In this document: in pieces, positions 1 to 10,565 of the stretch | Layout of the letters: every line of letters starts with the position of its first letter | Position numbering within the stretch: position 1 is the first letter of the stretch | Assembly: GCF_022808815.1 (NCBI RefSeq) | Contig: NZ_JAKZLC010000003.1 | Location: forward strand, 372,001 to 436,000 | Origin: Geothrix paludis | GTDB taxonomy: Bacteria; Acidobacteriota; Holophagae; Holophagales; Holophagaceae | DNA length: 64,000 nucleotides | Reading direction: 5' to 3' | The notes under the pieces: generated by a model | Told to the model about the DNA's origin: nothing | Databases searched by the model: none | Seen by the model: only the letters and a program-made list of their open reading frames with translations | Position numbers and translations under genes: made by a program

Positions 1-800
1 AGCTCGGCGCCGGGCCCGTAGGTGAGGCTGGCTTCGGTGAGCACCAGGACGCGATGGGTCCGCTTCGCGAGCTCGGCGATGGTCTCGTCGTCCAGGGGCC
101 AGAGAGTGCGCAGATCCAGCACCGCCACGTCCAGGTCCGCCACGGCTTCCAGCGCCACGTGCTGGGCGGCGCCGTAGGTGATCACGCAGGCCTTCGAGCC
201 GTCCTTGCGCAGGGCCGCCTCCCCGAGCCGGGCCGTGGGGGCCTCGTCCCACTCATCCTTGAGCCGACGGTAGAGGTGCTTGTGCTCGAAGAACAGCACA
301 GGATCGGGGTCGTCGATGGCCGCGCGCAGGAGGGCGTAGGCGTCGCGTACGGTGCCCGGAGCCACTACCTTCAGGCCGGGGCTGCCGAGGAAGTGGCCCT
401 CGGGGTTCTGGCTGTGGAAGGGGCCGCCGCCGTTGCCGGCGCCGGAGGGGCCGCGGAACACGGCGGGCACGGTGGCACCCCAGCGCCAGTGGGCCTTGGC
501 GGCGAAGTTCACCATGAGGTCGGAGGCCAGCAGGGCGAAGTCCATGAACTGGAACTCCGCCACGGGGCGCTGGCCCATGAGGGCCGCGCCGATGGCCGCA
601 CCGGCGATGGCCTGCTCGGAGATGGGCGTGTCGATCACCCGGTCCGCGCCGAAGCGTTCCAGCAGGCCCTCCGTGGCGCGGAAGGCGCCGCCGTACGTGC
701 CGATGTCCTCACCCAGGCAGCAGACCCGGGGATCGGCCTCCATGGCGTCGAAGAGGGCCTGGCGGATGGCGTCGACGTAGGTGCCGGAGAAGGCGGTCAT
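1..800 (-). CDS. 2-oxoacid dehydrogenase E1 component, beta subunit (3' end outside window)
   Basis: Beta half of the thiamine-diphosphate E1 enzyme of a pyruvate or branched-chain 2-oxoacid dehydrogenase complex. It works with an alpha subunit to decarboxylate the 2-oxoacid and reductively acylate the E2 lipoyl group. The translation from the ATG at 800 shows family landmarks: ALFDAMEADPRV near the N-terminus, CLGEDIGTYGGAF, DTPISEQAIAGAAIGAAL, VFRGPSGAGNGGGPFHSQ and, near the window edge, LDLRTLWPLDDETI. About 266 codons are visible and the reading frame is open to base 1, so the C-terminus lies outside. Its start codon overlaps the stop of the upstream synthase by four bases (ATGA), so the two are probably co-translated. 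The exact substrate cannot be decided from this subunit alone. Confidence 0.9.
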   Translation of the reverse strand, partial: MTAFSGTYVDAIRQALFDAMEADPRVCCLGEDIGTYGGAFRATEGLLERFGADRVIDTPISEQAIAGAAIGAALMGQRPVAEFQFMDFALLASDLMVNFAAKAHWRWGATVPAVFRGPSGAGNGGGPFHSQNPEGHFLGSPGLKVVAPGTVRDAYALLRAAIDDPDPVLFFEHKHLYRRLKDEWDEAPTARLGEAALRKDGSKACVITYGAAQHVALEAVADLDVAVLDLRTLWPLDDETIAELAKRTHRVLVLTEASLTYGPGAE

Positions 801-1798
801 CCCTTCGCCTCGAGCAGGCCCCTCTCCGCCAGCCAGGCGTCGTTGAAGATGCTGCTGAGGTAGCGGCCGGCGCCGTCGGGGAACACGGTGACGATGCGCG
901 CGGGGCGGCCCATGGGCGGCAGCTTGGCCGCCACCTGCCGCACCGCCCACAGTGCCGCTCCGCTGGAGCCGCCGCCCAGGACCCCCTCCTCCTTCACCAG
1001 CCGCCGCGCGTGGAGGAAGGCGTCGCGGTCCGTCACCTGGAGCATCTCGTCGATGAGCTCGAACTCCATGGTGGGGATGAGGAACTCGTCGCCCAGGCCC
1101 TCGATCTTGTAGGGCCCGGCCTTCAGCTCCCTCTCTCCGCGGAAGTGGGGTGTGAACACCGAGCCCACGGGATCCACGGCCACGACCTTGATCTTCGGAT
1201 CCTTCTCTTTCAGGTAGCGGCCCACGCCCCCGATCGTGCCGCCGGTGCCGGCGCCCGCCACCAGGACGTCGATGCGGCCCTCCATCTGCTCCCAGATCTC
1301 CGGTCCCGTGCCGGCGTAGTGGGCGGCATTGTTTTCCCGGTTGCCGTGCTGGTCGGGGAAGAAGCAGTTGGGGAGCTCCTTCGCCAGGCGCGGCGTGATG
1401 TTGTTGTAGCTGTCGGGATGCTCCGGCGGCAGGCTCGTGTCCACCTTGTGCACCTGGGCGCCCAGGGCCAGCAGCTGGTTCAGCTTCTCCTGGCTGATGG
1501 TGTCGCGCACCACGACCTTAAGCTTGTAGCCCTTCTGGATGGCCATGAGGGCCAGGCCCATGGCGGTGTTGCCCGAGGAGTTCTCGATGATGGTGTCGCC
1601 GGGCTTCAGCCGGCCGTCCCGCTCGGCCGCCTCGATCATGTGCTTGGCGATGCGGTCCTTGCTGCTGCCCATGGGGTTCAGGAACTCGAGCTTGGCGAAG
1701 ACCTCCGCCGGAAGGTCCGACACCACGCGGCGCAGCCGCACCAGCGGCGTGTTGCCGATGGCTTCCAGGACGCTGCCGCAGGGCTTCCGGTACTGCAT
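797..1798 (-). CDS. PLP-dependent cysteine synthase / cystathionine beta-synthase family enzyme
   Basis: A 333-residue fold-type II PLP enzyme joining a serine-derived substrate with sulfide or homocysteine. The N-terminus carries GNTPLVRL, the PLP lysine is K47 in NPMGSSKDR, the substrate loop is ENSSGNTAMGLA, and the phosphate-binding glycines are GAGTGGTIGGVGRYLK. The C-terminal PDGAGRYLSSIFND resembles the catalytic core of cystathionine beta-synthases more than CysK, but no CBS-domain pair follows. The start at 1798 (MQYRK) is chosen because AGGAGG lies six bases upstream; the open frame continues 42 codons further without support. The stop overlaps the start of the E1 beta gene. CysK/CysM activity remains possible. 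Confidence 0.85.
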   Translation of the reverse strand: MQYRKPCGSVLEAIGNTPLVRLRRVVSDLPAEVFAKLEFLNPMGSSKDRIAKHMIEAAERDGRLKPGDTIIENSSGNTAMGLALMAIQKGYKLKVVVRDTISQEKLNQLLALGAQVHKVDTSLPPEHPDSYNNITPRLAKELPNCFFPDQHGNRENNAAHYAGTGPEIWEQMEGRIDVLVAGAGTGGTIGGVGRYLKEKDPKIKVVAVDPVGSVFTPHFRGERELKAGPYKIEGLGDEFLIPTMEFELIDEMLQVTDRDAFLHARRLVKEEGVLGGGSSGAALWAVRQVAAKLPPMGRPARIVTVFPDGAGRYLSSIFNDAWLAERGLLEAKG

Positions 1799-1901
1799 GA
1801 GGTTCCTCCTGCCGCCAGTATGACCGGCGCAACGGCCAGGGGCCGGCGACAATGGGGCCAGCCGCCGCTGGGGATCCTTTGATCGCGGCGGACGGGGACC
1901 C

Positions 1902-3107
1902 ATGCCGCACCGCTTCGCGCCCATCTTCGACCACCACTCCCACGTGAGCCTTTATGCGGCCCTGCAGGGCTGCCTGGACCTCTCGACCTGCGCCAACCCG
2001 GCCGCGGCACTGCGCCTGATGCGGGCCCTGCCGGAGGACCGACTCTCCCTGGTCCGGGGCTGGCACAGCGGGCGTCTGCCCCTCTCGGAAGCCGACCTCG
2101 CAGGCCTGCCGCCCCTGCTCCTGGTGAACTTCAGCCTCCACGGCCTGCGCCTCAGCCCCGGAGCCGCCGAGATGCTCCAGGACACAGACTCGGAGCTGGT
2201 GGCGCGGCACGCCGATCCAGGCTGGTGCGAGCGGAACCTGGACCGACTCCTGGTCCTCTACGGCCGCACGGCGGGCCTCACGCCCGCCAAGCTGGAAGCC
2301 TGGATCCAGAGTCTCGAAGCCACGGGCACCGGGGCCGTGGAGGACCTGCTCCTCACGGGCGATGCGGCCTGGCGGGTGATGCGGGCCTCCCGGTGGGCGG
2401 ATCGCATGCCCTGGTGGACGGTTCCCGTCATCTTCGAGGCCCTTCCCGCCGAGGCCAAGGCCGAATGCGCAGGCCTGAAGGTCTTCACCGACGGGGCCCT
2501 GGGCGCCCGCACGGCGGCCCTGGCTGAGCCCTTCCTGGACGGGACCCCGGGCCTCCTGCTCCACACCGACGAGGGCTTGCGGCAGGCCCTGGCCGCCCTC
2601 CACCCCCACGGCAAGGCCCTGGCCATCCACGCCATCGGGGACCGGGCCATCGGCCAGGCGCTGGGGGCCCTGGAGGACCTGGACCGGCAGGGACTCCGCT
2701 TTCCCCTGGTCCGTCTGGAGCACCTCCAGTTCATCACCGAGGCCCAGGCCCGCCGGGCCCGGGACCTGGGACTGGTGCTCTCCATGCAGCCCAACTTCAC
2801 CAGCGACAGCGTGGACTACGGCGACCGTCTGGGCCCCGATATGCTGGCGCGGAACAATCCCTTCCGCATGCTCATCGACCGGGTCGGCTTCCGCCCCGGT
2901 AGGGACCTGATCTTCGGCTCGGACGGCATGCCCCACGGCCTGGCCTACGCCGCCCGCTGGAGCCTCTTCCCGCCCCACGAGGGCCAGCGCCTGAGCCTGA
3001 CGGAGCTGCTTGCCGGCTATGGGCCGGCGCCGGGGGATCTCCCCGCGCTGGAGCTCGCCATCGACGAGACGGCTCGGGAGGTCCGGCTGGTCGGAGGGCT
3101 CCGCTAG
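1902..3107 (+). CDS. amidohydrolase family protein (YtcJ-like)
   Basis: A 401-residue metal-dependent hydrolase of the amidohydrolase superfamily, probably cytoplasmic since no signal peptide is seen. Metal-site motifs in order are DHHSH at the N-terminus (HxH pair), a central KVFTDGALGARTAAL stretch typical of YtcJ/imidazolonepropionase-like members, HAIGDRAI, RLEHLQF and a late FGSDGMPHG supplying the catalytic aspartate. The substrate cannot be read from sequence. It is transcribed divergently from the cysteine synthase gene with about 100 bp between starts, and recN begins 9 bp after its stop, so the two probably share a transcript. Confidence 0.8.
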   Translation: MPHRFAPIFDHHSHVSLYAALQGCLDLSTCANPAAALRLMRALPEDRLSLVRGWHSGRLPLSEADLAGLPPLLLVNFSLHGLRLSPGAAEMLQDTDSELVARHADPGWCERNLDRLLVLYGRTAGLTPAKLEAWIQSLEATGTGAVEDLLLTGDAAWRVMRASRWADRMPWWTVPVIFEALPAEAKAECAGLKVFTDGALGARTAALAEPFLDGTPGLLLHTDEGLRQALAALHPHGKALAIHAIGDRAIGQALGALEDLDRQGLRFPLVRLEHLQFITEAQARRARDLGLVLSMQPNFTSDSVDYGDRLGPDMLARNNPFRMLIDRVGFRPGRDLIFGSDGMPHGLAYAARWSLFPPHEGQRLSLTELLAGYGPAPGDLPALELAIDETAREVRLVGGLR

Positions 3108-3116
3108 ACTGGTCCC

Positions 3117-4799
3117 ATGCTCTCATCCCTCAGAATCCAGAACCTGGCCCTGGTGGAAGACCTGTCCCTGGACTGGGGACCGGGCTTCACGGTGCTGACG
3201 GGCGAGACTGGAGCGGGCAAGTCCCTCCTGGTGGACGCGCTGTCGCTGCTGGTGGGCGCCCGGGGCGATGGGGAGCTGGTGCGGCACGGCGCGGAACGGG
3301 CCACGGTGGAGGCCGTGGTGGAGGGCCGCTTCGAGGCCTGGCGGGTTTTCCTGGCGGAGCGTGGCCTGCCGGAGGAACAGCCGGTGGTGCTGCGCCGCGA
3401 GGTGGGAGCGGGCCGCAGTCGGGCCTGGATCAACGGCGCCAGCTGCGCCCTGGCGGACCTGCGGGACGCGGGCCGGCTCTGGATGCGCCTCACCAGCCAG
3501 CACGACCACCAGTCGTTGCTGGGCGAAGACCGCCACTTGACGCTCATCGACGAGGTGCTGGGGATCGAGCCGGCCCTGGAATCCCAGGCGGCCTCGGTGC
3601 GGGAGGCCGAGGCCGCCCTGAAGGCCCGACGCCGCAGCGAGGCCGAGCGGGAACAGCGCCTGGAGCAGCTGGCGGAGGCCCTGGCGGACCTGGAGAAGCT
3701 GGCGCCGAAGCCCGGCGAGTGGGCCCAGCTCAAGGCCGACCGCGAGCCCCTGCGCCATGCCGTCCACCTGGAGCAGGCCTTCCGGGAGGCCGCCGAGGCC
3801 CTGGATGCGGGCATTCCCAAGGTGGAGCTGGCCCACAAGGCGCTGGTGCGCGCCGTGACCCATTGGCCGGACGCCGTGGCCGAGCAGGACCGCCTGCGGT
3901 CCGCCGTCCTGGAGCTGGAGGACCTGTTGGCTCTGGCTCAGGACCAGGCCCTGCGCTGGTCCCAGGCCGGCGCCGACCGCATCGAAGCCATGGAGGCCCG
4001 CCTCGCCCTCTACGAGCGCCTGGCCCGCCGCCACCGCTGCGAGCCCGAGGAGCTGGCCACGCACCAGCAGGCCCTCAAGGACGAGCAGCGCTCCCTGCTG
4101 GCCGGCGACGTCTCCGTGAAGGAGTTGGAGAAGGCCCTGGCGAAGGCCGCGGAGGCCTACCGGCAGGTGGCCGAGGTGCTGCACGGCCGCCGGTCCGAGG
4201 CCATTCCGAAGCTCGAGGCGGAAGTCCAGAAGCGACTGGGCCGTCTGGGCATGAAGGGGGCGCGGATCCAGCTGCGCCTCTCCCTGGCGGAGGAACCGGG
4301 CAGTCCCGTCCAGCAGAGCGGCCGGCCCGTCCGCGTGGCGGCCCAGGGCTTCTCGGCCCTGGCCATCTGGATCGAGCCGAACCCCGGCGAGGGCTTCCGC
4401 CCCCTGGCCAAGATCGCCTCCGGCGGCGAGCTGAGCCGCCTCATGCTGTCGCTCGTGGGGGCCGGTCTCGCCCTCGGCGCAGGCGTCAGGGACGGCCTCA
4501 CCCTGGTGCTGGACGAGGTGGACGCGGGTCTCGGCGGTGAGACGGCCCTGGCCGTGGGCAAGGCTGTGGCCGAGCTCGGGAAGGCCCACCAGGTGCTGGC
4601 TGTGACGCACCTGGCCCAGGTGGCGGCCCGGGCCGACCGGCACGGACGCCTGCACAAGGAGACCGAAGGCGGCCGCACCCGCAGCGCCCTGGGCTGGGTG
4701 GCGGGCGAGACCCGCAACCGCGAGCTGGCCCGGCTCCTCTCAGGCCACCCCGACCGGCCTGAGGCCCTGGAGCATGCCAAGGTGCTGCTGGAAGGTTGA
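3117..4799 (+). CDS. recN: DNA repair protein RecN
   Basis: SMC-like ATPase that helps organise broken DNA ends for recombination repair. At 560 residues it has normal RecN length. The N-terminal LRIQNLALVEDLSLDWGPG is characteristic of RecN, the Walker A GETGAGKS lies at residues 29-36, and a long Glu/Ala/Leu-rich central region fits the coiled coil. The C-terminal half carries the ABC signature ASGGELSRLMLSL and Walker B LVLDEVDAGLGGETA, then AVTHLAQVAARAD. It follows the amidohydrolase gene closely. No LexA-type box was recognised in the 9-bp gap, so any control would come from further upstream. Confidence 0.95.
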   Translation: MLSSLRIQNLALVEDLSLDWGPGFTVLTGETGAGKSLLVDALSLLVGARGDGELVRHGAERATVEAVVEGRFEAWRVFLAERGLPEEQPVVLRREVGAGRSRAWINGASCALADLRDAGRLWMRLTSQHDHQSLLGEDRHLTLIDEVLGIEPALESQAASVREAEAALKARRRSEAEREQRLEQLAEALADLEKLAPKPGEWAQLKADREPLRHAVHLEQAFREAAEALDAGIPKVELAHKALVRAVTHWPDAVAEQDRLRSAVLELEDLLALAQDQALRWSQAGADRIEAMEARLALYERLARRHRCEPEELATHQQALKDEQRSLLAGDVSVKELEKALAKAAEAYRQVAEVLHGRRSEAIPKLEAEVQKRLGRLGMKGARIQLRLSLAEEPGSPVQQSGRPVRVAAQGFSALAIWIEPNPGEGFRPLAKIASGGELSRLMLSLVGAGLALGAGVRDGLTLVLDEVDAGLGGETALAVGKAVAELGKAHQVLAVTHLAQVAARADRHGRLHKETEGGRTRSALGWVAGETRNRELARLLSGHPDRPEALEHAKVLLEG

Positions 4800-5140
4800 T
4801 TCAGGTTTTCTAGGCTTGCAGGTCTCAGCCAGAAAAGCAGGGACACAGAAGGCACAGAAGCGCCCGTTGGGCGCGCACAGAGGACACAGAAGGGACTCGA
4901 CCCACCGCGGACATCCCTTCACGGGCGGCGGCTCCGGACGGCTTCCGAGGACCGCCGTGGCCGCCGCCCATGAAGCAGGCCGCGCTAAGCGCGACCTGGG
5001 GCCGGAGGCCCGGATGTCCGGGCTGGGGTACCAAGTGCTTTTTCCGTGTTTTCCGGCCTTCTTCCGCGTCTTCCGTGACCCGCAAGAACATTCTGGATTG
5101 GCCGGCGTTTGCGGTGGGATCCGCTGCGGAAGAGCATGAA
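4800..5140. repeat. gene-free interval with periodic short-word repeats
   Basis: No credible gene is present between recN and the protease terminator. The left part (4840-4894) repeats words of the form gacacagaag/gcacagaag, and the right part (5041-5080) repeats ttccgtg/ttccgcg words that are the complementary style (cacggaag). The interval therefore has a loosely palindromic layout with 8-11 nt internal periodicity. Several GC-rich hairpins lie between. Open frames through here have no ribosome site and are read as chance. Confidence 0.5.
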
Positions 5141-5166
5141 AAAGGGCCGCCCGGAGGCGGCCCTTT
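5141..5166 (-). terminator. intrinsic terminator of the M4 protease gene
   Basis: An 11-bp perfect stem (aaagggccgcc/ggcggcccttt) with a cgga loop lies 17 bp beyond the stop of the minus-strand protease. On the minus strand the stem runs into CCCTTTTTC, the expected U-rich tail. Confidence 0.85.
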
Positions 5167-5182
5167 CCGTGGTTCGTTCCGA

Positions 5183-7612
5183 CTACTTGACGCTCACGTC
5201 GTCGACGACGAAGGAGGTCTGGAGGCTGCTGTCCTCCACGGAGTAGAAGCGCAGGCGGATGGTCTGGCCCTTGTAGGCGCTGAGGCTCAGCGACTTCTGG
5301 GTGTAGCCCGTGCCCTTGTCCAGGTTCGAGTAGGTGGCCAGGGTGGCCAGCACGGTGCCGGAGGTGTTGAGGACCTGGACCTTCATGGTGTCGTAGGCGG
5401 TGGTGGTGGTGGTCTCCGCCGTGTCGACGTGGAGCCAGAAGGTCAGGGTCCCGGTGGCGGTGCTGGGGATGGCGATCTGCTGGTAGATGTAGTCGGTGTG
5501 GGCGGAGCCGTAGCCGCACATCCAGGCATCGTAGGAGCCGCCGTGGGCGGGCTCGCCGGTGTAGGTTCCGATGACGCCGGTGGTCTGGGTCCAGCTGGTG
5601 GCGCCGCTCTCGAAGCCGCCGTTCAGGACCAGCTCCGTGCCACCCCCGCTGGTGTTGGAGACGCTGAAGGCGACGGTGGTGCTGGTGCCCACGTTGCCGG
5701 CGGCGTCATAGGCCTTGGCGACCAGGTTGTGGGACCCGTTGGTCAGCGTGGTGCTGTCGAAGGACAGGGTCCAAGGCGTGGCCGTGTCCGTGCCCTTCAG
5801 GGCGCCGTCCACGTAGAACTCCACCTTGGTGACGCCGACGTTGTCGCTGGCGGTGGCGGTGAAGGTGATGGTGCCCGATGTCCCGCTCTCGGTGACGCTC
5901 ACGGTGGGAGCGGTGGTGTCACCGGAACCGCTGGTCCAGGCGGAGCCCACGTTGATGCCGTGGAAGGCGTTCCACACGGCCTGCTCTTGGGCGCTGCCGG
6001 CGCCGTAGAGGTCCTTGGCGGCGCTGATGGCGGCCGTCCGGGCCCCGGCGTAGTTGGTGCTGGAGGTCATGTAGACGGTGAGGGCCCGGAACCAGATGCG
6101 GGCGGCGGCGTCGTTGCCGATGCCGGTCATGCCGTTCGGCAGGTAGGTGGTGCTGGTGTTGCCGCTGGTGGTGGCGCCCTGGCTGAGGAAGTAGAAGCAG
6201 CGGTTCATGGGGCCGCTGGAATAGTGCACGTCGAGGTTGCCGATGGTGGAGGACCAGGCGTCGGGGCTGGAGCCGTCCAGGCTGGGCTTGTACATCCAGC
6301 GCAGGGGGTTGGTGGCCAGCTGTTCGCCGATGGTCCAGTTGCCGCCGGTGCTGCCGATGGTGGAACCCGACCCGCCGCGGGCGTAGAACTCGATCATGGT
6401 GCCGAAGATGTCCGAGTTGGACTCGTTCAGACCGCCCGACTCGCCGGAGTAGGTGAGGTTGGCGGTGCGGGCGCAGACGCCGTGGCTCATCTCGTGGCCG
6501 GCCACATCCAGGGCGGTCAGCGTGGTGAAGCTGGTGCCGTCGCCATAGGTCATGCAAAAGCAGCTGTCGGACCAGAAGGCGTTGTCGTAGCCGTTGCCGA
6601 TGTGAACCCGGCTGTAGGTGGCGGTGCCGGAGCCGTCGATGCCGTTGCGGCTGAAGACGTTCTTGTAGAAGTCCCAGCTCTTGATCATGCCGAACATGGC
6701 GTCCACGGCCGCGGTCTCGCCGTTGGCGGCGGTGGTGGAGCCGCCTTCGACATAGTTGGCGCCGTCACCCCAGGTGTTGTCGGCGTCGGTGTAGATCGTG
6801 CCCGTGGCCGTGCTGCTGGTGGAGGCGTGGGCCATGTTGGTGACCACGTTGTTGCCGAAGGAACCGCCGCTGCCCCGGGTCGTGTCGCGCAGCTCGTAGG
6901 TGCTGCCGGTGTAGTTCGCGGGCAGGGAGACCGTGCCGTTGTACTGGCTGTTGCCGGTGCCGGTGGCCGCGGTGGTGTGGAGGGTGTTCCAGGACTTCAG
7001 GATGGCGCCGTTGTGCGCGTCCACCAGGTAGTCGGTGTGCTTGATGCCGTCCTGGTCGTTCTCGAGCTCGGTGTGGACGTGGTAGGCCAGGGCGTAGCGG
7101 AGCACTTCGCGGGACACGTCCTCGGCGTTCAGGTCGGCGGCGGCGCGACCGGCGCGGACGACCTCGGCCATCTCGGGGTAGACCACGAGCTCGGTCGTCG
7201 GGGCGTAGGCATAGGCGCCCTTGGGAGCCAGATCACTCTGGACGACGGCCAGCGCCTCCGCGGCGTCGAGGGAGGGGGTCACGTTCAGCTGGATGCCCTT
7301 GAGCAGGGCGTTGGTGAGGGGCAGCTCCGAGCCGTTCTTGGCGGTATGGGTGATGGCGTCGCCGCCCCACACCTTCACGCCCTTGTAGGTCTGCTGGAAG
7401 TGGGCGTGGGACTGACCGAGCTGGTCGGCATGGGCGCCGCGGAGGAGGAACGCGTGGTCCGCATCCAGCCCCAGCTGCGCGCGGCTGGCCAGCAGATGCT
7501 GGGCGGCCGCATCGGCGCGCGGCGAATCCTGCGGAAGCCGAGCGCTCAGGGAACCCGCGGCGAGGGCCGCGGTGAGGAAGGACAGGGCCGTACGGCCCGT
7601 GGAGATCGCCAT
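5183..7612 (-). CDS. secreted M4 (thermolysin-family) metalloprotease with Ig-like and C-terminal adhesion-type domains
   Basis: A predicted 809-residue exported zinc endopeptidase. A signal peptide (residues 1 to about 24) is followed by an FTP-type propeptide (HFQQTYKGVKVWGGD) and the M4 catalytic domain. Zinc site: H373-E-M-S-H377 and, 24 residues after the first His, E397 in GGLNESNSD, exactly the thermolysin spacing. After the catalytic domain come an Ig-like repeat (TAPTVSVTES... DNVGVTKVEFYVDG) and a jelly-roll-like C-terminal module starting ELVLNGGFESG, common in large secreted bacterial peptidases. The start at 7612 has AAGGAG upstream; the frame continues 39 codons further with poor support. 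It stands alone, with its own promoter and terminator. Confidence 0.92.
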   Translation of the reverse strand: MAISTGRTALSFLTAALAAGSLSARLPQDSPRADAAAQHLLASRAQLGLDADHAFLLRGAHADQLGQSHAHFQQTYKGVKVWGGDAITHTAKNGSELPLTNALLKGIQLNVTPSLDAAEALAVVQSDLAPKGAYAYAPTTELVVYPEMAEVVRAGRAAADLNAEDVSREVLRYALAYHVHTELENDQDGIKHTDYLVDAHNGAILKSWNTLHTTAATGTGNSQYNGTVSLPANYTGSTYELRDTTRGSGGSFGNNVVTNMAHASTSSTATGTIYTDADNTWGDGANYVEGGSTTAANGETAAVDAMFGMIKSWDFYKNVFSRNGIDGSGTATYSRVHIGNGYDNAFWSDSCFCMTYGDGTSFTTLTALDVAGHEMSHGVCARTANLTYSGESGGLNESNSDIFGTMIEFYARGGSGSTIGSTGGNWTIGEQLATNPLRWMYKPSLDGSSPDAWSSTIGNLDVHYSSGPMNRCFYFLSQGATTSGNTSTTYLPNGMTGIGNDAAARIWFRALTVYMTSSTNYAGARTAAISAAKDLYGAGSAQEQAVWNAFHGINVGSAWTSGSGDTTAPTVSVTESGTSGTITFTATASDNVGVTKVEFYVDGALKGTDTATPWTLSFDSTTLTNGSHNLVAKAYDAAGNVGTSTTVAFSVSNTSGGGTELVLNGGFESGATSWTQTTGVIGTYTGEPAHGGSYDAWMCGYGSAHTDYIYQQIAIPSTATGTLTFWLHVDTAETTTTTAYDTMKVQVLNTSGTVLATLATYSNLDKGTGYTQKSLSLSAYKGQTIRLRFYSVEDSSLQTSFVVDDVSVK

Positions 7613-7758
7613 GGGGGGCTCCTTGACTTGAGGGGGGGGAGGCCTGCCCGCTTCGCCGAAGCGAGGACGGAGGCTAGGTGGGGGTGAAAAGATCGGAAAG
7701 TCGGAACCAGAGTCCCTACCGCGCGTCAACCCCTCAAGTTAAGGCTTGTTAATTTTCT

Positions 7759-9939: not shown

Positions 9940-9995
9940 GGCGGCGCCCTTTCGCATCTGGCCGTTCTCCGCCTTTCGCGGCGACCCATGCAGTC

Positions 9996-10199
9996 ACGGG
10001 GCTCGAACGGGTCCGCGGCGCCCTGCGGGCTTGCGTCCCCTGGCCTTGGGGGGGGGGGGGGGGGGGCCGGGCGCGGGGCGCGCCGACCGACGCGGGGGGC
10101 GGGGGCGCGGGGGACAGGGCATCAAGCCCTGTCTCCGCAAGTCCACTCGACGCTGGATCCTGGCCGCGCATGCGCGGCCGGGGCGGGTCCGAGCCCCGT
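9996..10199 (-). repeat. tRNA-Asp-tail-derived unit 2 (inverted T-arm copies around a GC-rich spacer)
   Basis: A 204-bp unit whose ends are inverted copies of the tRNA-Asp T-arm. acggggctcgaac (9996-10008) faces gtccgagccccgt (10187-10199). The right end extends to 10182-10207, matching 24 of 26 nt of the tRNA-Asp 3' end including its discriminator base. Inside are a run of 19 G (10048-10066) and a perfect 8-bp hairpin gacagggc-atcaa-gccctgtc (10113-10133). A flanking segment from 9961 is also shared with unit 1. No gene is visible. Confidence 0.65.
10048..10066. repeat. homopolymer run of 19 G
   Basis: Nineteen consecutive G on the plus strand inside the tRNA-associated unit. It may be a slippage-prone tract or an assembly artefact. 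Confidence 0.8.
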
Positions 10200-10241
10200 C
10201 AGCCCCGCCGTTCCCCCCCTTTCGTGCCGACCCATGCCGCC

Positions 10242-10351
10242 ACGGGGCTCGAACGCAGCCGCTGCGCCCTTTGGGCTTGCGTCTGCCGGTCTCGCTCCGG
10301 CGCCACATCAAGTGGCGCCTCTGCGATCCCACTCGCGGGTCCGAGCCCCGT
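10242..10351 (-). repeat. tRNA-Asp-tail-derived unit 1
   Basis: A 110-bp unit with ends acggggctcgaac (10242-10254) and gtccgagccccgt (10339-10351), inverted relative to each other. The tRNA-proximal end (10332-10358) is an inverted near-copy, 24 of 27 nt, of the T-arm plus acceptor strand of the adjacent tRNA-Asp (10395-10421). It contains hairpin ggcgccac-atcaa-gtggcgcc (10299-10319). A stretch from about 10207 (gccgttcc...gacccatg...cacggggctcgaacg...gggcttgcgt) is shared with unit 2 starting at 9961. Confidence 0.7.
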
Positions 10352-10361
10352 CCGCCCCAAA

Positions 10362-10395
10362 CGCCAAAAAGCGCCCGACTGGGCGCTTTTTGGCG
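10362..10395 (-). terminator. intrinsic terminator of the tRNA-Val/tRNA-Asp operon
   Basis: A 15-bp perfect inverted repeat (left arm 10362-10376, right arm 10381-10395, loop gact) begins within the encoded CCA end of tRNA-Asp. Runs of five A and five T occupy the stem, so it could stop transcription in either direction. Confidence 0.75.
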
Positions 10396-10467
10396 GGGCT
10401 GACGGGGCTCGAACCCGCGACCTCCGGCGTGACAGGCCGGCACTCTAACCGACTGAGCTACAACCCC
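10391..10467 (-). tRNA. tRNA-Asp (anticodon GTC), CCA encoded
   Basis: The minus strand reads a full cloverleaf: acceptor GGGGTTG pairing with CAGCCCC (one G-T pair), D-arm GCTCAGTCGGTTAGAG, anticodon loop CTGTCAC between CCGGC and GCCGG (anticodon GTC), T-arm GCGGGTTCGAGCCCCGT, discriminator G, then CCA at 10393-10391. It follows tRNA-Val by 22 bp on the same strand, with its terminator overlapping the CCA. Confidence 0.96.
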
Positions 10468-10489: not shown

Positions 10490-10565
10490 TGGTGGGCGAT
10501 GACGGGCTCGAACCGCCGACATGCTGCGTGTAAGGCAGCTGCTCTACCGACTGAGCTAATCGCCC
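10490..10565 (-). tRNA. tRNA-Val (anticodon TAC), CCA encoded
   Basis: The minus strand gives acceptor GGGCGAT/ATCGCCC, D-arm GCTCAGTCGGTAGAGC, anticodon stem GCTGC/GCAGC around CTTACAC (anticodon TAC), T-arm GGCGGTTCGAGCCCGTC, discriminator A and encoded CCA. A short perfect hairpin (caccagat/atctggtg) sits between its CCA and tRNA-Asp, perhaps aiding processing. A weak TTGACC (10610-10605, minus strand) upstream might be the -35 of the pair. Confidence 0.96.

Follow-up and report, generated by a model that had tools for sequence, protein, structure and literature searches.

A family of RNA-like repeats behind Geothrix tRNA genes that carry the antisense T-arm of the preceding tRNA

The tandem array behind tRNA-Asp(GTC)

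In the window (the whole stretch of Geothrix paludis DNA that was analysed, 64,000 nucleotides), a pair of tandem units, about 150 and 250 bp long, lies on the minus strand immediately 3′ of the genes for tRNA-Val(TAC) and tRNA-Asp(GTC). Both tRNA genes were identified on the minus strand with ARAGORN: tRNA-Val(TAC), the upstream member of the pair, at 10490–10565, and tRNA-Asp(GTC), which precedes the array and is matched by it, at 10391–10467, where the Rfam tRNA model scores 70 bits. The array begins past a bidirectional terminator-like hairpin, an inverted repeat with 15-bp arms and a 4-nt loop that occupies the spacer behind tRNA-Asp(GTC) (10362–10395). Elsewhere in the window, a minus-strand open reading frame of 848 amino acids (5183–7729) has a HEMSH zinc-binding motif and probably encodes a secreted thermolysin-type metallopeptidase.

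Unit 1 opens with an anti-T-arm (10333–10358, minus strand, as are all the unit elements that follow), the reverse complement of the tRNA-Asp T-arm and acceptor 3′ strand; it was detected as an inverted repeat 92% complementary to 10395–10420 and by the cognate test described below. The structured core, delimited by covariance model R1, extends over 10245–10348 and comprises a basal helix, a helix P2 with GA/GA and purine 3 × 3 loops, an apical hairpin and a hairpin P3. The apical hairpin, GGCGCCAC-UUGAU-GUGGCGCC, is located at 10299–10319 (from the sequence and the R1 alignment) and a second hairpin found by RNA folding, CGCAAGCCCAAAGGGCGC, at 10264–10281. The T-loop and T-stem 3′ strand are repeated in sense at 10242–10255, a stretch that pairs with the anti-T-arm, as seen in the sequence, the inverted repeat and the fold, and the conserved TGGGTCG lies behind the unit at 10228–10234. 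Unit 2 comprises an anti-T-arm of 27 nt (10183–10209; inverted repeat) that is 96% complementary to the 3′ half of tRNA-Asp, an optional hairpin module, GGCCGCGCATGCGCGGCC, followed by ATCCAGCGTC (10159–10182), which is an inverted repeat also found in relatives, the apical hairpin GACAGGGC-UUGAU-GCCCUGUC (10113–10133), a T-loop and T-stem 3′ strand repeated in sense (9996–10009) and TGGGTCG (9982–9988). It is disrupted by a GC-rich insert with a run of 19 G (10048–10066), possibly a sequence or assembly fault. Model R1, which was built from 18 units, matches unit 1 on the minus strand at 10348–10245 with 83.7 bits (E 5e-15), against 23.5 bits on the opposite strand; as unit 1 is a member of the training set, the independent evidence consists of the covariation and the location of the matches at tRNA genes only. 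Unit 2, with its 19-G insert, scores about 15 bits.

The apical hairpins had been noticed in a sequence-only reading of the window, which overlooked their link to tRNA-Asp and the cognate anti-T-arm. On the forward strand they read gacagggc-atcaa-gccctgtc (10113–10133) and ggcgccac-atcaa-gtggcgcc (10299–10319), and both are exact, with 8 fully paired bp. The gcgccct...gggcttgc element said to accompany them was found in both units, at 10019–10036 and as the second hairpin of unit 1 at 10264–10281. The description of the stems as differing at nearly every base is slightly strong: five of the eight stem pairs differ and three positions are identical. The hairpins are real and exceed what chance would give. 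The fold belongs to the minus (tRNA) strand, where the loop is UUGAU and not AUCAA, and this loop, taken to be conserved, is common to the two window copies but not generally kept, other copies having TAGAT, TTGAT or TCGAT (tRNA strand) or wholly unlike loops such as AGT or GGG.

Unit classes, fold and distribution

The units were found to be of two classes. In those of class A, behind tRNA-Asp, three tRNA-Pro, tRNA-Thr(CGT), tRNA-Arg(CCG), tRNA-Arg(TCT), tRNA-His and tRNA-Met, the antisense of the whole T-arm comes first, then GAGTGG, and the T-loop and T-stem 3′ strand, copied in sense, close the unit. Class B units, behind tRNA-Cys, tRNA-Phe, tRNA-Ser and tRNA-Leu(CAA), open with the antisense of the acceptor and T-stem 3′ strand and close with 20 nt copied from the tRNA 3′ end, CCA included; their breakpoints fall within the T-loop, and the complement of the T-stem 5′ strand (T5) is absent from the Cys, Ser, Phe and Leu units.

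The 18 units used for R1 are class A units that align well. Their fold consists of a 10-bp basal helix between the anti-T-arm and the T copy, P2, in which a GA/GA loop adjoins an invariant GG/CC, a roughly 3 × 3 internal loop rich in purines (GGA facing GGA), an apical hairpin of 8 variable bp and the P3 hairpin. Pairing is kept in 94.3% of the cells of the alignment, and two-sided changes occur in 13 of 32 pairs (47 cells), compared with 7.1 pairs and 13.0 cells in column shuffles; slid partners are paired in 26–39% of cases. Simulations along a tree built from these sequences, starting from a paired consensus (200 runs), gave a mean of 10.4 and a maximum of 31 two-sided cells with 76% pairing, and the maximum rose to 45 when branch lengths were increased by half, a single tree being only an approximation given the recombination between units. 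The compensatory change and the selection for a folded nucleic acid that had been proposed from the two window hairpins are thus supported, with covariation above the tree-aware expectation.

The folded strand is the tRNA strand (minus in the window). Class A cores fold better on this strand by an average of 4.9 kcal/mol, and do so in 86% of 76 cores; the corresponding values are −3.5 kcal/mol for class B, −3.2 for tRNA genes and a nonsignificant −0.6 for flanks, the p-values being only indicative for sequences of common ancestry. Mismatch counts over whole regions were too noisy to give a strand signal, and the apical hairpins alone have too few mismatches (three T·G and one A·C) for a strand test, but counts in defined pairings gave one, as described below.

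The downstream region of every tRNA locus in the G. paludis genome was inspected. Units are present behind roughly 18 tRNA genes and most tRNA genes have none. BLAST searches of this genome yielded copies of only weak sequence similarity, every clear one of them 3′ of another tRNA gene; all nine R1 matches lie immediately downstream of a tRNA gene, on the same strand as the tRNA. The matches examined in relatives are likewise downstream of tRNA genes and co-oriented with them, or else at a cut-off tRNA 3′ half. Among 297 genomes of Acidobacteriota, R1, the class A model, matched 20 of 21 Geothrix genomes and one genome of a neighbouring genus; pattern matches in contigs from outside the Holophagaceae were mostly due to chance and had no model match. 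The neighbouring-genus locus (JACPUT010000006.1, Holophagaceae, 85–5751) is an array of 14 tRNA genes that also contains an RtcB-like ligase, a TROVE/vWA-like protein and an HNH-like open reading frame, with one hairpin unit between tRNA-Pro(CGG) and tRNA-Gly that has a cognate anti-T-arm and a CCA end.

The number of units at one orthologous locus changes by gain and loss between species, from 0 to 3 or more; modules are swapped between arrays, and identical cores are common to different loci. An extra module of about 100 nt (GACTCGGGCTCCGCCCTCGCCC...GCTGCAGTCGAATGGTCGAGCCCC) ends the tRNA-Asp arrays of several species (loci L094, L104, L108 and L114). Where no intact tRNA adjoins the unit (L063, L074 and L284), the unit lies behind a tRNA 3′ half of the kind that island integration leaves. 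Two of these islands appear to have integrated at the T-arm of tRNA-Pro(GGG) (L063, genome G015) and tRNA-Thr(CGT) (L074, genome G020), and the third (L284, genome G169) at the anticodon region of a tRNA-Pro; in all three the tRNA 3′ fragment was left beside the repeat array. Most units sit behind a terminator and would therefore be transcribed only upon read-through. At the Arg-TCT and Pro-TGG loci no terminator separates the tRNA from the unit, so that co-transcription is expected there.

On the sequence evidence, the Geothrix units constitute a real, ordered and previously unlisted family of RNA-like repeats. Rfam has no usable family for the window units, the matches to isrG, RNAI and similar families being far below the cut-offs.

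A T-arm complement that follows its tRNA, in Geothrix and in E. coli

In each class A unit, those of the window included, the opening stretch is antisense to the T-arm of the preceding tRNA. In a matrix of class A loci against tRNAs covering eight tRNA species, the locus's own T-arm was the best match in seven of the eight rows; the eighth was an exact tie between tRNA-Pro(CGG) and tRNA-Pro(GGG), which have identical T-arms. The complementarity was not uniform along the tRNA: over 70 loci the T-stem 5′ strand reached 0.99, the T-loop 0.94, the T-stem 3′ strand 0.78 and the acceptor 0.45, levels that are inflated by the selection of loci with a match of at least 13/17, with the gradient still informative. 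A second count was anchored on GAGTGG, blind to the tRNA, and compared the five preceding bases with the T5 complement. The match to the unit's own tRNA was 4.64 of 5 in first units (n = 75) and 4.95 of 5 in later units (n = 19), as opposed to 2.6–2.7 of 5 for other tRNAs, in a count that leaves out the units with the optional GGCC hairpin module, which lies between the anti-T-arm and GAGTGG. In later units the T5 complement stands at 0.99 while the loop and T-stem 3′ (T3) parts have decayed to 0.68 and 0.66. Since the rest of the anti-T-arm has decayed, the T5 complement is retained in its own right. This segment is unpaired when the unit is folded by itself.

The anti-T-arm varies with the tRNA, both between isoacceptors and between species at one orthologous locus. 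A natural experiment is provided by tRNA-Pro(TGG), which has three different T-arms among species, each matched by its units with an average of 15.1/17. Mismatches in the pairing between anti-T-arm and tRNA include 77 G·U, 26 A·C and 89 others, and the loop part has 29 G·U, 3 A·C and 8 others; such an excess of G·U over A·C is what would be predicted of RNA pairing on the tRNA strand. The sequence-only reading had left the choice between a folded RNA and a protein-recognised cruciform. Selection for folding is supported, whereas the strand asymmetry and the G·U excess disfavour the cruciform.

The closest known elements are the tRNA-linked repeats (TLRs) of E. coli, described in 1978, of which there are 22 at ten loci and for which a function is known only for the three behind rRNA operons (PMC8144298). 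Like them, the Geothrix units are tandem, of similar size and directly behind tRNA genes, have a reverse complement of the T-stem 3′/acceptor strand near the start, and contain a hairpin core; they differ in the core itself, in the many more tRNA species concerned and in the phylum. TLRs are defined by a location immediately 3′ of a tRNA or rRNA gene, where the nine matches in the G. paludis genome and the loci of relatives also lie, and by a final 18–19 bp that repeat the 3′ end of the upstream tRNA exactly (PMC8144298). Transcription together with the tRNA is a further TLR trait, to which the two terminator-free Geothrix loci (Arg-TCT and Pro-TGG) and the unit inside the tRNA array of the neighbouring genus point indirectly. 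The window units end in only 13 nt of T-loop and T3 stem, with no acceptor or CCA, and most class A units also fall short of 18–19 bp, while the class B Cys, Ser, Leu and Phe units have end copies of 20–21 nt and some Met and Pro units of 21–26 nt; a terminal copy of the tRNA 3′ end, 20–26 nt long, is a likeness of class B. The Rfam RtT RNA model (RF00391) scores 47–138 bits at the E. coli loci and found neither the window units nor any of ten Geothrix unit loci when the E-value was relaxed as well, and the Geothrix model had no sense-strand match in E. coli. The end copy being found in class B and not in the window units, and RtT matching no Geothrix unit, the Geothrix units work like tRNA-linked repeats but are a variant rather than a plain member.

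The E. coli K-12 repeats behind tyrT/tyrV, proK and lysQ/lysV also have an anti-T-arm, with a score of 14/17 (L301, L303, L306 and L313 among the loci examined) that was attained in none of 300 spacer shuffles. The Tyr, Pro and lysQ/lysV repeats have a cognate T5 complement, which in the tyrT, proK or lysQ repeat is GAACCTTCGA. The best fit of the Tyr and Pro anti-T-arms is their own tRNA, with Pro and Arg indistinguishable and, over the full arm, LysQ and Tyr likewise. Neither the Arg nor the short Lys repeats of E. coli K-12 have an anti-T-arm. No description of an anti-T-arm in tRNA-linked repeats was found in the literature searched, a set that does not include older papers in subscription journals.

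Possible roles of the units

We tentatively favour, at somewhat below an even chance, the reading that the units are cis-acting RNAs that would capture the T-arm in a read-through precursor and act as a fail-safe for that tRNA or control its dose. The action in cis would be on a precursor that escapes immediate termination or cleavage 3′ of the tRNA. The anti-T-arm, with its free T5-complementary end as a toehold, would invade the T-arm of the tRNA and yield an inactive precursor; the unit's own T copy would compete for the anti-T-arm and allow the tRNA to fold, and the balance of capture and release might depend on a protein or on processing at the core. In silico folds of tRNA, terminator and unit predicted capture of the T5 strand with a probability of at least 0.74 and loss of the T stem at 12 of 15 loci, in an equilibrium calculation that disregards tRNA modification and co-transcriptional folding. 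At equilibrium, a read-through transcript would consequently hold an unfolded T-arm, which favours a cis-acting trap or fail-safe. Against such control, most units are separated from their tRNA by a terminator, and units are missing behind most tRNA genes and turn over between species, unlike an essential control, and, by sequence comparison, the lack of the T5 complement in class B units and in the E. coli Arg repeats would also count against it.

The turnover also fits selfish or passive DNA, that is, hairpin-prone tandem repeats at tRNA 3′ ends that grow, contract and swap modules by recombination and template switching and in which the cognate match is a by-product of local copying. The variation from 0 to 3 or more units per orthologous locus, the swapped modules, the cores common to several loci and the class B breakpoints in the T-loop are all in keeping with this origin. 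However, copying about the terminator palindrome predicts that the acceptor complement should be best, and it was 0.45 against 0.99 for the distant T5; the increase of complementarity with distance from the centre led us to discount quasi-palindrome correction about the terminator in its simple form. The retention of T5 at 0.99 in later units despite loop and T3 values of 0.68 and 0.66, the G·U over A·C mismatches and the strand-specific fold also speak against passive copying, which we regard as somewhat unlikely.

It is less likely still that the units are trans-acting small RNAs cut from a read-through precursor, which would act on other RNAs or proteins and use the tRNA match for processing only. 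Such action is reported for E. coli: the small RNAs rrA, rrB and rrF are TLR members behind rRNA operons (PMC8144298), and the RNA 3′ETS-leuZ is a product of a tRNA precursor's 3′ spacer (cited in PMC8144298). In addition, the conserved purine internal loops and nearly free stems of the Geothrix units resemble protein-binding RNA. However, rrA, rrB and rrF follow rRNA rather than tRNA, no anti-T-arm has been shown for them, and they bind CsrA and Hfq, while the G. paludis genome (96.65% complete) has no match to CsrA (PF02599), leaving a CsrA sponge unsupported. 3′ETS-leuZ is a short sponge of two small RNAs, is not tandem and has no reported complementarity to its tRNA. Y RNA (YrlA, with Ro60/Rsr) is another structured, tRNA-related RNA, and the neighbouring-genus unit shares its tRNA array with RtcB and a TROVE-like protein, but none of 47 Geothrix genomes has a TROVE protein and there was no match to an Rfam Y RNA, so this reading is also unsupported. 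Moreover, a role in trans needs no T5 complement that tracks the tRNA.

Two readings of the units as DNA fared worse. The T-arm copies could be relics of attachment sites of tyrosine-integrase elements that target tRNA 3′ ends, given the islands at the T-arm of the same tRNAs (L063 and L074) and at an anticodon region (L284) in relatives and the 20-nt tRNA 3′-end copies of class B. This is improbable: the units are gene-free, tandem, about 100–250 nt long and have a conserved covarying core, their best-kept identity is the inverted T5 side and not the usual 3′ block, and the islands are seen between tRNA and unit, not as the unit itself. A DNA cruciform or single-stranded DNA hairpin recognised by a protein such as a transposase or recombinase is very improbable, since the long near-perfect inverted repeats, and purine mismatch loops that are stable in DNA as well, are set against the G·U over A·C asymmetry and the lack of model copies away from tRNA genes in the G. 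paludis genome. Two further candidates were rejected. GAGTGGGACCGCG resembles a T-box motif, but the base after TGG obeys no tRNA rule and no aminoacyl gene lies downstream; and the opposite strand was not taken as tmRNA-like or tRNA-like, the extra tRNA-Asp that ARAGORN gives in L124 being a chance call across the array.

The TLR kind of repeat is already known but unexplained; what is new, and can be tested, is the cognate anti-T-arm. A broader proposal, which we hold to be rather doubtful, is that the TLRs of distant phyla are one general tRNA-cognate cis RNA switch in which the antisense T-arm would unfold its own tRNA in the precursor, the decoy T copy would release it, and the fate of the pre-tRNA would be set gene by gene. 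With dozens of Geothrix genomes that have arrays behind many tRNA species, a one-species curiosity becomes a set with measurable covariation. The cognate anti-T-arm, common to Geothrix and three E. coli loci, points to a mechanism that is open to a compensatory-mutation test.
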